From an uncultured Flavobacteriales bacterium (GTDB lineage Bacteria > Bacteroidota > Bacteroidia > Flavobacteriales > Schleiferiaceae): a stretch of DNA of 51,138 nucleotides. Position numbers and translations under genes: made by a program. The notes under the pieces were generated by a model that was not told where the DNA came from, made no database searches, and saw only the letters and a list, made by a program, of their open reading frames with translations. Shown in pieces: positions 26,762-32,093 of this stretch. Position 1 is the first letter of the stretch. Each line of letters starts with the position of its first letter. The DNA is taken from positions 1 to 51,138 of the forward strand of contig CALDGA010000161.1 of assembly GCA_937942085.1 (NCBI GenBank). The letters run 5' to 3'.

Positions 26762-28285
26762 ATGAAAAAGATAGCACTATTACTATTGACCATCGTTACT
26801 GTTTCGAGTAACGCACAGAACTTGACTACTTTCGGTCTATCGGGGAATGCCAATAACTTAACACACAACCCGGCCGCTGATCCATTGACTTCATTTCACC
26901 TTAACTACGCTGGTCTCAACGCTACTCTCGGAATGAATCAAACGGCAGGTAATATTTTCGCCACTACGGATGTACTTGCAAATTTGAGTAATCTCAATTC
27001 GAATACATTGAGTCTTACTGGAGAAACCAGCATTGATATTTTCCACCTCGGGTTTAAGGCAGGTAAAAACTATGTTTTCGCCGGCTATACCCAGAACATT
27101 GCCTTTGGATTAGATTTCGATAAGGACCTTGCCCAATTTGCGAAATATGGTTTCGGAGATGGCAATGGCAACTTGAATTTGAACTACCAAGGTGATTTCA
27201 GCGATCTCGGTACCTCGCTCGATGTTACAAACGATGTATTCGTAGGGTTGCAGCGTTCTTTCATGGAGAACAAACTACGATTAGGTGTGAGTGCGCATCA
27301 GATTGGTTATGGTTTGGGCATGAGAGTGCAAGCCGATGCATTCAGCATCAACAGCACAGCCACGTCCGTTCCCGGACGCAACAATGTGAATGTGAATTAT
27401 GACTTCACCATAGCTACAGCGGGTGTATTGGATGCTACAGCAACGACAGATCAGCTATCTGATTTGGGCAATGCTCTAGCCGCTACAGATGCGCTTGTTG
27501 CGAGCCTTACTACCCCAGCGAACAGTACAACGGCCTTTACCCTGGGAGCAAATTACAAACCTATCGATAAGCTTAGCCTCCAGTTCAGTATGAGTGGCTT
27601 GGGAGCCTCTCCTATTGCCATTTCAACAGATGTGGCAAAGCGCCTTGCAGGAGGTGTATCCATCGATGGTTTCGAGTACATCAGCAATGCAACTGATACA
27701 CTTGGCACTGCTGTACGCAACGAGGTACAGAGCTTTACGGACGGTATTTCTAATGGTCTCAACACCAACCTAGAGAACACTACCTTCAGCTACGAATATG
27801 CGGTACCACAAGTAACTAATGCAGCGATGAACTACCACCTCAAGGGTCAAACCTATGTTGGTGTGCATTACACGAGCCGTACGAACTCCATTACGGATTA
27901 TGAGTACTTAGGGTTCACCTCATTATTGTGGTTGCACAAAAACATTCAATTGAAGGGTGCTTACTACCTAACGATGAATGAGAATAATGCAGATCTAATC
28001 ACAACCGCATTACAATTCAGAGTTACACCACTATTACAGGTATATATTGGAACTACTACAACTGGCGATATCGCAACGGTTGCAGCTAATTCAAGCGAGT
28101 CTATTATGGTAGGTGCTGCCACTCAAGGAGTAAACGTGACGGCAGGTTTAAGTATGGTATTCTTCGATCAAAGATTTAAAAAAGGCAGTAAGAAAAAAGA
28201 AGAAACTCCAACCCTAACCCCTCAAGAGGTTAAGAAGGTCATTGAGGCATACGATCAAAGCAAAACGGTTAAAAGTAACAAGTGA
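26762..28285 (+). CDS. DUF5723-like outer-membrane beta-barrel protein
   Basis: Protein of 507 residues with a signal peptide ending SSNAQ. It has the features of the DUF5723/PorV-like barrel group: an early NPAADP motif (cf. NPA in FadL/PorV-type barrels), many short amphipathic strands (FHLNYAGLNATLGM, YVFAGYTQNIAFGLDFD, KLSLQFSMSGLG, IQLKGAYYLTM, QVYIGTTTTGD), and the end of the barrel near GLSMVFFDQRF. A lysine-rich tail (about 470-507) follows the barrel and would lie in the periplasm. Function is not known for this group. It is second in a two-gene unit with the lipoprotein, and a perfect bidirectional terminator follows its stop. Confidence 0.75.
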   Translation: MKKIALLLLTIVTVSSNAQNLTTFGLSGNANNLTHNPAADPLTSFHLNYAGLNATLGMNQTAGNIFATTDVLANLSNLNSNTLSLTGETSIDIFHLGFKAGKNYVFAGYTQNIAFGLDFDKDLAQFAKYGFGDGNGNLNLNYQGDFSDLGTSLDVTNDVFVGLQRSFMENKLRLGVSAHQIGYGLGMRVQADAFSINSTATSVPGRNNVNVNYDFTIATAGVLDATATTDQLSDLGNALAATDALVASLTTPANSTTAFTLGANYKPIDKLSLQFSMSGLGASPIAISTDVAKRLAGGVSIDGFEYISNATDTLGTAVRNEVQSFTDGISNGLNTNLENTTFSYEYAVPQVTNAAMNYHLKGQTYVGVHYTSRTNSITDYEYLGFTSLLWLHKNIQLKGAYYLTMNENNADLITTALQFRVTPLLQVYIGTTTTGDIATVAANSSESIMVGAATQGVNVTAGLSMVFFDQRFKKGSKKKEETPTLTPQEVKKVIEAYDQSKTVKSNK

Positions 28286-28291
28286 TATTTC

Positions 28292-28322
28292 TAATAAAGC
28301 CCGGCTCCGCCGGGCTTTATTA
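28292..28322. terminator. Perfect bidirectional terminator between convergent genes
   Basis: A 14-bp perfect stem (TAATAAAGCCCGGC / GCCGGGCTTTATTA) with a 3-base loop has A-rich outer arms that give a T run on both strands. It serves the DUF5723 unit from the left and the DUF58 unit from the right; the DUF58 stop codon at 28320-28322 is part of the stem. Confidence 0.92.
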
Positions 28323-29204
28323 TGCCAATAATTTTCTAAGTAGTACGACCGGATCTTCGTCTACATTGAGTGCATCTATGGATATCCCCGCCCCTCTTGA
28401 AGTGAGCTCCAAGGTGGAGAGTTGCTCCATACAGAAATTCGTGAATCGGCGCACTTCCTCCTCCGTGAGGTAGGTCTTTTTGCCCGTTTCATGATCAATC
28501 ACCTGGTGACCGGATAGTCCTTTTCCATCTATCTCAAACTGCTTGCTATACATGATCATTAACCGAACATGATGATTGACGTGTTTGAATTTTGAAAGCG
28601 ATTGAACTAATGCAGGAATATCTTGGTGATAGACATCTGTGAAGGCTAGAATTTGACTTCGCTTCGGCAACCTCGAATGCAGAGTTTCGAGCTGGTCTAA
28701 AAATACCTCATTACCAATCTGGCGCTCTTGTAAACCCCGGATGTTGTGTAAGAGCAGTTGAATGTTTTCCTCCTTGTTGGAGCTTTCAAAAAATTGGGCA
28801 TCGGCATCATTCACCTCAAACAATCCCAATGCATCTCGTTGCTTCTGCAGTAGGGATGCAATGAGGGTGATCACTTGAACGGTACGCTCCCACTTCCCTG
28901 CATCTTCATTCGGGTAAAACATACTGGAACTGGAATCCAAAACGAAGAATGTCCGCATATTAGATTCTGCCTCATACAATTTGGTCAGGAAGCGATCCGT
29001 CTTCGCATATACCGACCAATCAATGTGTTTGGGGGAATCACCCGGTACATACTGACGGTGCTGGGCAAATTCTACGCTGTAGCCGAAATCAGGGCTGCGG
29101 TGCAGCCCTGATATAAAGCCTTGGACGCGTTCTTGCGCCCACCAATACAAGTCGTTGATTTGGTCTGTATTCACTAGCTCAGCTCTAATTTCTTCCGAGC
29201 CCAT
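28320..29204 (-). CDS. DUF58 family protein (vWA-like)
   Basis: Protein of 294 residues in the DUF58 family. The N-terminal mark is present as GYSVEFAQHRQYVPGDSPKHIDWSVYAKTDR (the usual form is F.E.R.Y..GD..R.IDW..TART). Next comes a von Willebrand A-like fold with the metal-site motif FFVLDSSSSM. DUF58 proteins usually work with a MoxR AAA+ ATPase in assembling or activating protein complexes; no MoxR gene is adjacent here. Instead two small helical proteins precede it. Its ATG lies 31 bases inside the previous gene, so the three are translated as a unit. The first hundred bases of the gene contain an 11-bp perfect inverted repeat. Confidence 0.9.
   Translation of the reverse strand: MGSEEIRAELVNTDQINDLYWWAQERVQGFISGLHRSPDFGYSVEFAQHRQYVPGDSPKHIDWSVYAKTDRFLTKLYEAESNMRTFFVLDSSSSMFYPNEDAGKWERTVQVITLIASLLQKQRDALGLFEVNDADAQFFESSNKEENIQLLLHNIRGLQERQIGNEVFLDQLETLHSRLPKRSQILAFTDVYHQDIPALVQSLSKFKHVNHHVRLMIMYSKQFEIDGKGLSGHQVIDHETGKKTYLTEEEVRRFTNFCMEQLSTLELTSRGAGISIDALNVDEDPVVLLRKLLA
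29088..29112 (-). repeat. Perfect inverted repeat inside the DUF58 gene
   Basis: ATCAGGGCTGC and GCAGCCCTGAT flank a 3-base loop within the codons of the DUF58 N-terminal region. It would form a strong hairpin in the mRNA. No T run follows on either strand, so it is not a standard terminator. Confidence 0.8.
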
Positions 29205-29587
29205 GAAGATAAGGTGATGTAATCAAGGGGCACCTCAGAATTCACAAGCTCGAGAACTAATTTTATTCTCCATCGCAATAAACGAATTCGTTCAATCAAA
29301 TCCGAAGGAAACCCGCCCCTTATCATGCGCGCAGTGTTGGCAATTCTAATGTGTTCCAATAGCAGTGTCAATCGCTTCATCGCATTTTGATAATAGCTAA
29401 TGAACGTATGCTCGAATCTAGCACTGACCCCTAAATCCAAATCATTGCAAATACCGACAATATCGTCCTTGATTTTAAAGGCAAGATTGAAGGTCCCATT
29501 GCTATGATATCCTCTGGTAAGGTCTTGAATGGTTCTATTGATGGCCAGGGATTCCTGATACATCGGTTGAGAGATATGTGTTTTCAT
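29174..29587 (-). CDS. Small all-helical protein, possibly four-helix-bundle (IVP/Avd-like)
   Basis: Protein of 137 residues with no signal peptide and four predicted helices. The run YQESLAINRTIQDLTRGY, then FNLAFKIKDDIVGICNDL, FEHTFISYYQNAMKRLTLLLEHIRIA and LIERIRLLRWRIKLVLELV follows the layout of the four-helix-bundle family found in 23S rRNA intervening sequences and related to Avd accessory proteins, but the match is distant. The usual N-I-A-E-G motif between helices 2 and 3 is replaced by NDLDLGVSAR. It starts 2 bp after the companion gene and overlaps the DUF58 start by 31 bases. I cannot assign a function. Confidence 0.5.
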   Translation of the reverse strand: MKTHISQPMYQESLAINRTIQDLTRGYHSNGTFNLAFKIKDDIVGICNDLDLGVSARFEHTFISYYQNAMKRLTLLLEHIRIANTARMIRGGFPSDLIERIRLLRWRIKLVLELVNSEVPLDYITLSSWARKKLELS

Positions 29588-29589
29588 GG

Positions 29590-30018
29590 TTAGTTCGGGC
29601 GGTTTAAGTTTTGAATTTGAAAAAGATAAATACGCATCTGCCCTACCTCATTTTGCAGGCGGTAGTACAATTCATGAATTTCGTGCAGCACATGGTCCAT
29701 CCCAGGAAAATCAAGTCCTTCTTGAATGATACACCGCAATAAGGTCTTGAATTCAATGACTTGGTGAACAAGAAAATCATACGCTAGAATGTGTTGTTCT
29801 AGCGGGCTTTGCTCATTGAATTCACAAATCGCTTGCGTCATAAATACATGGCATTGCAACATACTTTCATAAACCGGTTGGCCTTTAAGCTCATGGAAAT
29901 ACGTTAGCACGCGATGCGCGGATTGCTGAAGGAAGAAAGTCGATTTACTCTGGATCAAATGTGTATTACTGTACATTTTTACGGTATTTGAGTGTTGTTT
30001 ATTGATGACCGAAGGCAT
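29590..30018 (-). CDS. Small all-helical protein of unknown function
   Basis: Protein of 142 residues from the ATG giving MPSVINKQHS; a TTG seven codons upstream and an ATG 14 codons downstream (MYSNTHLIQ) are alternatives. The core is helical: FFLQQSAHRVLTYFHEL, YESMLQCHVFMTQAICEF, LEQHILAYDFLVHQVIEFKTLLRCII and LHEIHELYYRLQNEVGQMRIYLFQIQ. Spacing of the helices is like the next gene, so the two may be distant paralogues. There is no signal peptide or membrane segment. It is the first gene of the three-gene unit ending in DUF58. No promoter box was found in the 190 bp upstream. Confidence 0.55.
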   Translation of the reverse strand: MPSVINKQHSNTVKMYSNTHLIQSKSTFFLQQSAHRVLTYFHELKGQPVYESMLQCHVFMTQAICEFNEQSPLEQHILAYDFLVHQVIEFKTLLRCIIQEGLDFPGMDHVLHEIHELYYRLQNEVGQMRIYLFQIQNLNRPN

Positions 30019-30209: not shown

Positions 30210-31193
30210 ATGATTATCACCAAAACCCCTTTCCGTATTTCCTTTGTTGGCGGCGGTAGTGATTTGCCCGCCTTCTTCGAGAAACAAAAAGGTGCCGTGC
30301 TCAGTACTAGCATTAATAAGTACATGTACATTAGCACCCATCAGTACTTCGAAGCGGATAAAATCCGTTGTAAGTACTCTCAAACAGAGACGGTTGGGGA
30401 TGTCAAGGAATTGAAGCACCCCATCCTAAAAACGGTACTGAGCGATTTTCATCTCAACGGGATCGAGGTGAGTTCCATTGCGGATATACCTGGTGGGACA
30501 GGTATGGGCAGTAGCTCGAGTTTTACCGTTGGGCTGCTCCACAATCTGAATACCTACATCGGAAAGGAAGTTAGTAAGGAGGCATTGGGTGCCGGCGCGT
30601 GTCGCATTGAGATTGAGCTTTTGGGCGAGCCCATAGGCAAGCAGGATCAATATGCGGCGGCCTACGGAGGCTTGAATGTGATTGAATTCAATCCGAACGG
30701 TACGGTGACGGTGAGCCCTGTGAATATTAGTGATGAGATCAGGGACCAATTGGATCAAAATCTAAAACTCTATTATCTCGGCAATCAAAGATCTGCCAGC
30801 GCCATTCTTTCCGAGCAGAAGAAAAACACCTCTGCCGAGGATAAATTCAAGGCCTTGGAACATATGGTGAGCCTCGTTTACAAACTTCGAGACAGTTTGG
30901 AAGCCGGTAAATTGGATGATTTTGGAGCCCTGATGCATGAGAATTGGTTGCTTAAACAGCAACTCGCTTCTGGTATTACCACCCCTCAAATCACTGAAAC
31001 TTACGATGCTGGCTTAAAAGCGGGTGCCTTGGGAGGCAAGTTATTGGGAGCCGGTGGTGGCGGCTTTATGCTGTTCTATGCTCCAGAAGAGGTGCATGAA
31101 GCACTGGATCTGGCTATGGAAGGTGTCGGGGCTACTCCTTTTGAGTTCTCTATGGAAACGGAAGGCTCCAAACTCATACATGTGGAAAGATAA
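30210..31193 (+). CDS. GHMP kinase, D-glycero-alpha-D-manno-heptose 7-phosphate kinase-like
   Basis: Sugar kinase of 327 residues. It begins TKTPFRISFVGGGSDLPAF, the typical opening of HddA-type enzymes. The GHMP ATP loop is IPGGTGMGSSSSFTVG (about residues 93-108), DQYAAAYGGLN follows, and the C-terminal motif is LLGAGGGGFMLFY. The HddA branch phosphorylates heptose 7-phosphate at C1 on the way to GDP-heptose for S-layer or O-antigen glycans; related kinases act on fucose or other sugars. None of the partners (gmhA, gmhB, hddC) is nearby, so substrate is inferred by resemblance only. It is transcribed alone between the divergent helical-protein unit and the rpsP promoter. Confidence 0.87.
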   Translation: MIITKTPFRISFVGGGSDLPAFFEKQKGAVLSTSINKYMYISTHQYFEADKIRCKYSQTETVGDVKELKHPILKTVLSDFHLNGIEVSSIADIPGGTGMGSSSSFTVGLLHNLNTYIGKEVSKEALGAGACRIEIELLGEPIGKQDQYAAAYGGLNVIEFNPNGTVTVSPVNISDEIRDQLDQNLKLYYLGNQRSASAILSEQKKNTSAEDKFKALEHMVSLVYKLRDSLEAGKLDDFGALMHENWLLKQQLASGITTPQITETYDAGLKAGALGGKLLGAGGGGFMLFYAPEEVHEALDLAMEGVGATPFEFSMETEGSKLIHVER

Positions 31194-31289: not shown

Positions 31290-32093
31290 ATGGCAACAAA
31301 GATTCGTTTGCAACGTGGTGGACGCAAAGCACGTCCTATTTACTCAATCGTAGTGGCAGATGCTCGCGCTAAGCGTGACGGTCGTTTCATCGAGAAACTA
31401 GGTACGTACAACCCTAACACCAACCCGGCAACAATCGATCTAAACTTTGACTCAGCTCTATCTTGGGTCATGAAAGGTGCTCAGCCTACTGATACTGCTC
31501 GTGCAATTCTATCTTACCGTGGTGTAATGATGAAAAAGCACTTGTTGGAAGGTGTACGCAAAGGTGCTTTGACTGAAGAGCAAGCAGAAGCAAAGTTTGA
31601 AGCTTGGACAAACGAGAAGGAGTCTAAGATTCAAAACAAAGTAGAATCTCTAGCTAGTGCAGATGCTAAGGCGAAGTCAGAACGTTTGGCTGCTGAATCT
31701 GAAGCAAACAAAGCACGTGCTGCAGCTATTGCTGCTGCAAACGCACCTGTAGAGGAAGCACCGGCTGAAGAAGCAGTTGCTGAGGCAGAAGAAGCTACTG
31801 AGGAAGTACCGGCTGAAGAAGCGGTTGCTGAGGCAGAAGAAGCTACTGAGGAAGTACCGGCTGAAGAAGCGGTTGCTGAGGCAGAAGAAGCTACTGAGGA
31901 AGCACCGGCTGAAGAAGCGGTTGCTGAGGCAGAAGAAGCTGCTGAGGAAGCACCGGCTGAAGAAGCGGTTGCTGAGGCAGAAGAAGCTGCTGAGGAAGCA
32001 CCAGCTGAAGAAGCGGTTGCTGAGGCAGAAGAAGCTACTGAAGAAGTAGTTGCTGAAGCTGAGGAAGCTACTGCAGAAGAAAGCGCAGAGTAA
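31290..32093 (+). CDS. rpsP: Ribosomal protein S16 with long repetitive acidic tail
   Basis: S16 of the 30S subunit. Residues 1-80 are the normal domain ([50 protein letters not shown]). Bacteroidota S16 has an extra helical part, seen here to about residue 150 as a Lys/Ala/Glu-rich coiled stretch. From residue 155 a further tail of about 112 residues is made of six near-identical 16-residue units ([16 protein letters not shown] type) and a partial one, giving 267 residues, about three times the E. coli length. The tail is strongly acidic and low in complexity, so it is probably flexible on the ribosome surface. rimM follows 2 bp later. Confidence 0.95.
31752..32072 (+). repeat. In-frame 48-bp tandem repeats in rpsP
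   Basis: Six full 48-bp units and a partial seventh encode the acidic 16-residue repeats. Units differ mainly at the GTA/GCA (Val/Ala) and ACT/GCT (Thr/Ala) codons, so nucleotide identity is very high. Such arrays change copy number easily. Confidence 0.92.

Follow-up and report, generated by a model that had tools for sequence, protein, structure and literature searches.

We find that an operon of two genes for small helical proteins and one for a DUF58 protein, in an uncultured member of a marine genus of the Schleiferiaceae, is mostly explained as a variation on the MoxR/DUF58 theme to which an unusual, genus-restricted pair of proteins with a predicted S23-type fold has been added; it is not a new kind of system. 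The operon lies near the middle of the window, by which we mean the whole stretch of 51,138 nucleotides analyzed here (contig CALDGA010000161.1). The reading that we favor, with confidence that is about evenly balanced, is that the DUF58 protein and a MoxR protein acting in trans form a chaperone-type pair, and that the two small proteins (“pA” and “pB”) serve this pair as a lineage-specific adaptor or regulator.

The initial annotation described an operon of two small helical proteins and DUF58, with 2 bases separating the small genes, and this layout stands: the three genes are co-directional on the minus strand, with DUF58 last (Table 1). The product of the last gene matches PF01882 at 84 bits (cut-off 23.4, E 1.1e-23). 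Two gene starts had to be revised. The first small protein had been given 142 residues; all 17 pA orthologues start at a methionine matching the ATG at 29976, at the head of the motif MYxSxxLIQSK, and with this conserved start pA has 128 residues. The overlap of 31 bases ascribed to pB and DUF58 is more probably one of a single base. The ATG at 29204 is not conserved, the closest relative (97% identity in pB) has a TAG in the upstream frame, and among congeners DUF58 mostly begins at the position equivalent to the GTG at 29174, which points to this GTG as the probable true start, overlapping the pB stop by one base in TAGTG. Elsewhere in the window, the gene for ribosomal protein S16 (31290-32093) encodes 267 amino acids, of which the S16 domain takes up residues 9-67 only, with a long Ala/Glu repeat tail; the ORF at this site differs in length among several congeners (about 182-221 aa).

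Table 1. Features of the operon and its surroundings, in coordinates of the window.
Feature	Position	Strand	Evidence
pA, small protein, 128 aa, predicted S23/Avd-type four-helix bundle, fast evolving	29590..29976	-	17 orthologues, structure model
pB, 137 aa, divergent S23 / 23S_rRNA_IVP family protein	29174..29587	-	PF05635, structure model
DUF58 (vWA-like) protein, 284 aa, probable GTG start	28320..29174	-	PF01882, comparison with congeners
In-frame ATG extension upstream of DUF58, probably not the start	29175..29204	-	TAG in closest relative
Perfect 14-bp inverted repeat, likely a bidirectional terminator shared by DUF58 and the convergent DUF5723 gene	28292..28322	.	contains the DUF58 stop
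Divergent neighbor, GHMP-type kinase	30210..31193	+	PF00288 2.8e-13, PF08544 5.6e-11
Convergent neighbor, DUF5723 protein	26762..28285	+	PF18990 3.2e-24

The operon is real and far from a chance arrangement. Across 25 genomes of the genus, pB is found in 21 by single-sequence search and in 22 by profile, remnants included, and pA in 17. Wherever the contig permits, the three genes are adjacent in the order pA-pB-DUF58, and their coupling by one to a few bases is retained across the genus, deeply diverged species included. The dN/dS ratio is at most 0.09 in every pA or pB pair compared (0.04-0.09 for pA) and lies between 0.03 and 0.15 for DUF58, so all three genes encode functional proteins under strong purifying selection. 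At long distance, pB is the best conserved of the three proteins (65-69% identity), followed by DUF58 (41-58%) and pA (about 20-45%). A search of the other genera of the family found no homologue of either small protein, and neither gene stands beside DUF58 at 18 further loci outside the genus; the pair was found in one Schleiferiaceae genus only. Between the window and one congener (G005, locus L087), DUF58 differs little (dS 0.68), yet the synonymous sites of pA and pB are saturated, and this disparity within a single genome pair suggests mosaic ancestry, with recombination inside the operon.

A resemblance of one small protein to the four-helix bundle of rRNA intervening sequences and Avd proteins had been proposed, and it is borne out for pB, which its profile matches and structure model place as a divergent member of the S23 family (Pfam 23S_rRNA_IVP, PF05635). 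Matches to PF05635 occur in 13 of 14 pB members, the best at 8.1e-9. The pB of the window itself reaches 14.2 bits against a cut-off of 33.8, and two of its orthologues pass that cut-off (36.4 bits in G007 and 35.9 in G009). The pB profile also aligns without gaps to 53 canonical IVPs over columns 8-103 (P 1.5e-4); in this alignment helix 2 of pB carries GICNDLDLG in place of SIPSNIAEG, the SIPxNIAEG motif that we take as typical of S23, not as defining it. The pB model (pLDDT 83) has helices at residues 3-24, 33-54, 59-85 and 95-115. Its top PDB match is 2RLD (Z 16.2, rmsd 2.1 over 111 residues), with 2GSC at Z 15.6, the Avd structures (4DWL, 8UB7/8UB8) at Z 14.1-13.5 and the first unrelated fold at Z 14.0. 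A profile search of PDB sequences with pB returned chance matches only.

For pA, it is the predicted fold that points to the same group. Its model (pLDDT 92.5, pTM 0.84) has helices at residues 11-26, 34-51, 59-85 and 93-124; these boundaries are close to those of pB, and helix 3 is the same in both, in keeping with the similar helix spacing remarked on in the initial annotation. The first three PDB matches of the model are 2GSC (Z 12.2), 2RLD (12.2) and 4DWL, an Avd structure (11.4), and the top value of 12.2 is no higher than unrelated helical bundles can attain; with pA these reach up to 11.3. Searches with pA gave no Pfam, PDB-sequence profile or hhalign match and no sequence relatives outside the genus, and hhalign found no similarity between pA and either pB or the 53 canonical IVPs (probability 0.2%). 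We infer that pA probably has the S23/Avd fold; as the likeness is one of fold alone and common ancestry is unproven, we do not file it as a member of the S23 family. Both proteins are similar in size to S23 proteins (PF05635; 2GSC, 2RLD), pB matching them in full-length profile and fold and pA in fold only. They differ from the canonical family in that the helix-2 motif is replaced in pB, in that their genes do not lie in a 23S rRNA gene, and in that two such genes, both diverged, stand one after the other and are coupled to DUF58.

The apparent lack of MoxR had made the operon puzzling. It holds for linkage: no moxR lies near the operon, nor is there a set of moxR, DUF58, vWA and TPR genes (Bat operon) at the site. 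It does not hold for the genome, which has two MoxR genes, one beside a second DUF58 gene (G000:C153, in an arrangement that is complete in G006) and one orphan (G000:C243). The missing moxR is also not peculiar to the window, and on comparison the puzzle vanishes. In 35 genomes from outside the genus, MoxR is encoded within 4 kb at 0 of 25 loci of this DUF58 subfamily (delimited at E below 1e-27, with a clear gap to the next class) versus all 48 other DUF58 loci. The subfamily is present in most Flavobacteriales families, and its vWA-type DxSxS metal-site motif, LDSSSSM in the window, is kept in 37 aligned homologues with few exceptions. The typical order elsewhere is dnaE-trxA-DUF58 (12 of 18 loci, one of them checked with Pfam). 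At the three dnaE loci of the genus that we read, dnaE and trxA stay together and DUF58 does not follow them. Judged by gene order, dnaE-trxA-DUF58 is the putative ancestral arrangement, from which the DUF58 gene of this genus would have moved behind pA-pB.

Outside the genus, 26 genomes have a MoxR of the orphan type (delimited at E below 1e-100, the next class being at 1e-84), in none of them with DUF58 within 4 kb. Its gene directly follows a gene for a SurA-like PPIase in all 11 loci read (the locus of the window's own genome was checked with Pfam), and the genus keeps it. Across the 35 non-genus genomes, this MoxR and this DUF58 occur together in 25 and are both missing from 9 (7 genera); MoxR alone is seen in one, G037, whose congener G052 has both. 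When all 60 genomes are counted there are three such MoxR-only cases, two of them in assemblies that are 72-74% complete. Counted by genus, the two occur together in 24 and are both missing from 7 (Fisher 3.8e-7, with no correction for phylogeny). Such co-occurrence of two genes that are never linked to a counterpart suggests that the proteins are likely a split pair acting in trans. That MoxR proteins partner with VWA-domain proteins is already known (for example PMC9976466 and PMC10585395). Like the known pairs (RavA-ViaA, NorQ-NorD and the MoxR-DUF58 of Bat operons), this putative one has the DxSxS motif and a MoxR subfamily of its own, whose distribution among genomes matches that of the DUF58, the pairing being drawn from co-occurrence; unlike them, its two genes lie apart, with the orphan MoxR in a SurA-like operon. 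The locus further differs from the Bat operon, which is described together with DUF58 in PMC11834572, in that it has no BatA/B/D partners and in that two S23-fold genes precede DUF58. Since this DUF58 subfamily and the SurA-linked MoxR travel together across Flavobacteriales, each orphan gains a likely partner. In six genomes of the genus (G012:C1, G022:C37, G009:C5, G010:C13, G014:C27 and G023:C24) the orphan moxR lies ~17 kb from dnaE, the ancestral neighbor of this DUF58 gene.

Within the genus, the two small genes have been lost together at least four times, DUF58 staying each time. In G003, G004, G015 and G016, a deletion spans pA and the greater part of pB, so that no more than a C-terminal pB stub precedes DUF58. 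In G011 (L101), pA is deleted and pB, still ~95% identical to that of its sister, carries a frameshift and a stop; it is a fresh pseudogene that captures the pair in decay. Trees of DUF58 and of the neighboring GHMP-type kinase, which served as the reference gene, resolve these losses into four separate events. Neither pA nor pB was seen intact without the other, and contiguous deletion could be part of the cause. In all five genomes DUF58 persists under selection, and pA and pB are thus dispensable, which counts against the reading that we favor. Loss of linkage in close relatives had been named as an outcome that would speak against the operon. The small genes are indeed deleted outright in some relatives; they were never seen relocated.

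On these observations, the arrangement that we favor would work as follows. DUF58 would supply the vWA side of a chaperone-type pair with MoxR, which is encoded at a second site in the SurA-like PPIase operon and would supply the AAA+ side in trans. The DUF58 gene of this Schleiferiaceae genus would have left dnaE-trxA and come to lie behind the coupled pA-pB genes. Because proteins of the S23 and Avd type form pentameric rings, we propose that pA and pB most likely assemble together as a hetero-oligomer of the S23 fold. Translated just before DUF58, they may bind it as an adaptor or regulator, with pB as the conserved core and pA as a fast-changing specificity part, and the whole may act on a client. 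A three-part remodelling machine, in which a pA/pB hetero-ring of the S23 type acts as adaptor for clients or nucleic acid and serves a DUF58 that the orphan MoxR drives in trans, seems to us somewhat unlikely. If it were true, chromosomal S23-family proteins would gain a defined role outside retroelements and would be linked to MoxR/vWA chaperones.

The main rival to the adaptor reading is that pA and pB are an S23-type unit of their own, for instance a ring that binds RNA or other nucleic acid, which shares a transcript with DUF58 and makes no direct contact with it. We take this to be quite possible, if tentative. S23 genes adjoin many unrelated genes, and no DUF58 or moxR is near 48 of the 54 S23 loci sampled; this counts against the adaptor reading, because the S23 fold alone then implies no link to DUF58. 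The independent unit also gains from the patchiness among congeners of an S23 gene found between moxR and DUF58 in another family (see below), and it would explain how pA and pB vanish while DUF58 stays, although their repeated loss fits the adaptor view too. It is harder to reconcile with a gene order and tight coupling that outlast deep divergence, and RNA binding in particular sits poorly with isoelectric points of 6.5-9.6 for pB and 5.1-9.2 for pA and no conserved net positive charge.

The absence of MoxR beside so tightly coupled an operon could also mean that pA and pB took over the role of MoxR beside DUF58, which would then work without an AAA+ motor. We judge this improbable, because in all the other genera as well, which yielded neither pA nor pB, members of the DUF58 subfamily have no moxR beside them, and because the subfamily tracks an orphan MoxR that the genus keeps. 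The idea that DUF58 swapped MoxR for small helical proteins is therefore not supported by the comparison across the order, and at least four lineages retain DUF58 without them. The identity of pA, which falls to about 20% where pB still has 65%, and the repeated loss of the pair might be read as signs of a defence or toxin-antitoxin-like cassette with a fast-evolving pA; with no PADLOC match, no informative PHROG family match, a fixed chromosomal site, low dN/dS in pA and no signs of mobility, we consider it very improbable. Hardly credible is a remnant of a diversity-generating retroelement with pB as its Avd. The predicted four-helix bundle is indeed that of Avd (4DWL, 8UB7/8UB8; Z 13-14), but S23 structures fit pB better, pA and pB are not consistently basic as Avd is, and matches to reverse transcriptase families were found in 0 of the 25 genus genomes with positive controls, so we rejected this candidate.

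To our knowledge, S23-family genes have no established role outside Avd, and the conserved and strongly selected pA/pB pair beside DUF58 is a concrete place to seek one. Matches to the family are common (232 of 296 Bacteroidota genomes sampled, often several per genome). In Xanthomonas, S23p forms a homopentamer whose subunits are four-helix bundles, and S23p proteins are described as having no known function (PMC4990558); Avd resembles PF05635 (PMC10053308). None of the papers that we searched contains the terms DUF58 and “four helix bundle protein” together. Within our own sample, six genomes of another family of the same order (f6; L169, L170, L171, L173, L180 and L191) have a canonical S23 gene flanked by moxR and the gene for a 440-aa DUF58 protein. 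As in the window, an S23-family gene directly precedes DUF58. The arrangement differs in its canonical S23, its longer DUF58 of another class and its adjacent moxR, and it is patchy within its genus, the S23 gene having no counterpart in the congeners L231 and L232. We set it aside as independent support and regard it as suggestive only: it is a single orthologous site, and S23 genes are so numerous that chance could produce one of this kind. The f6 pattern looks as if S23 genes insert between the genes of operons. The genome of the window also has a canonical stand-alone S23/IVP gene (G000:C198:2517-2831, 121.5 bits), which lies on a short contig, unlinked to DUF58 or moxR.
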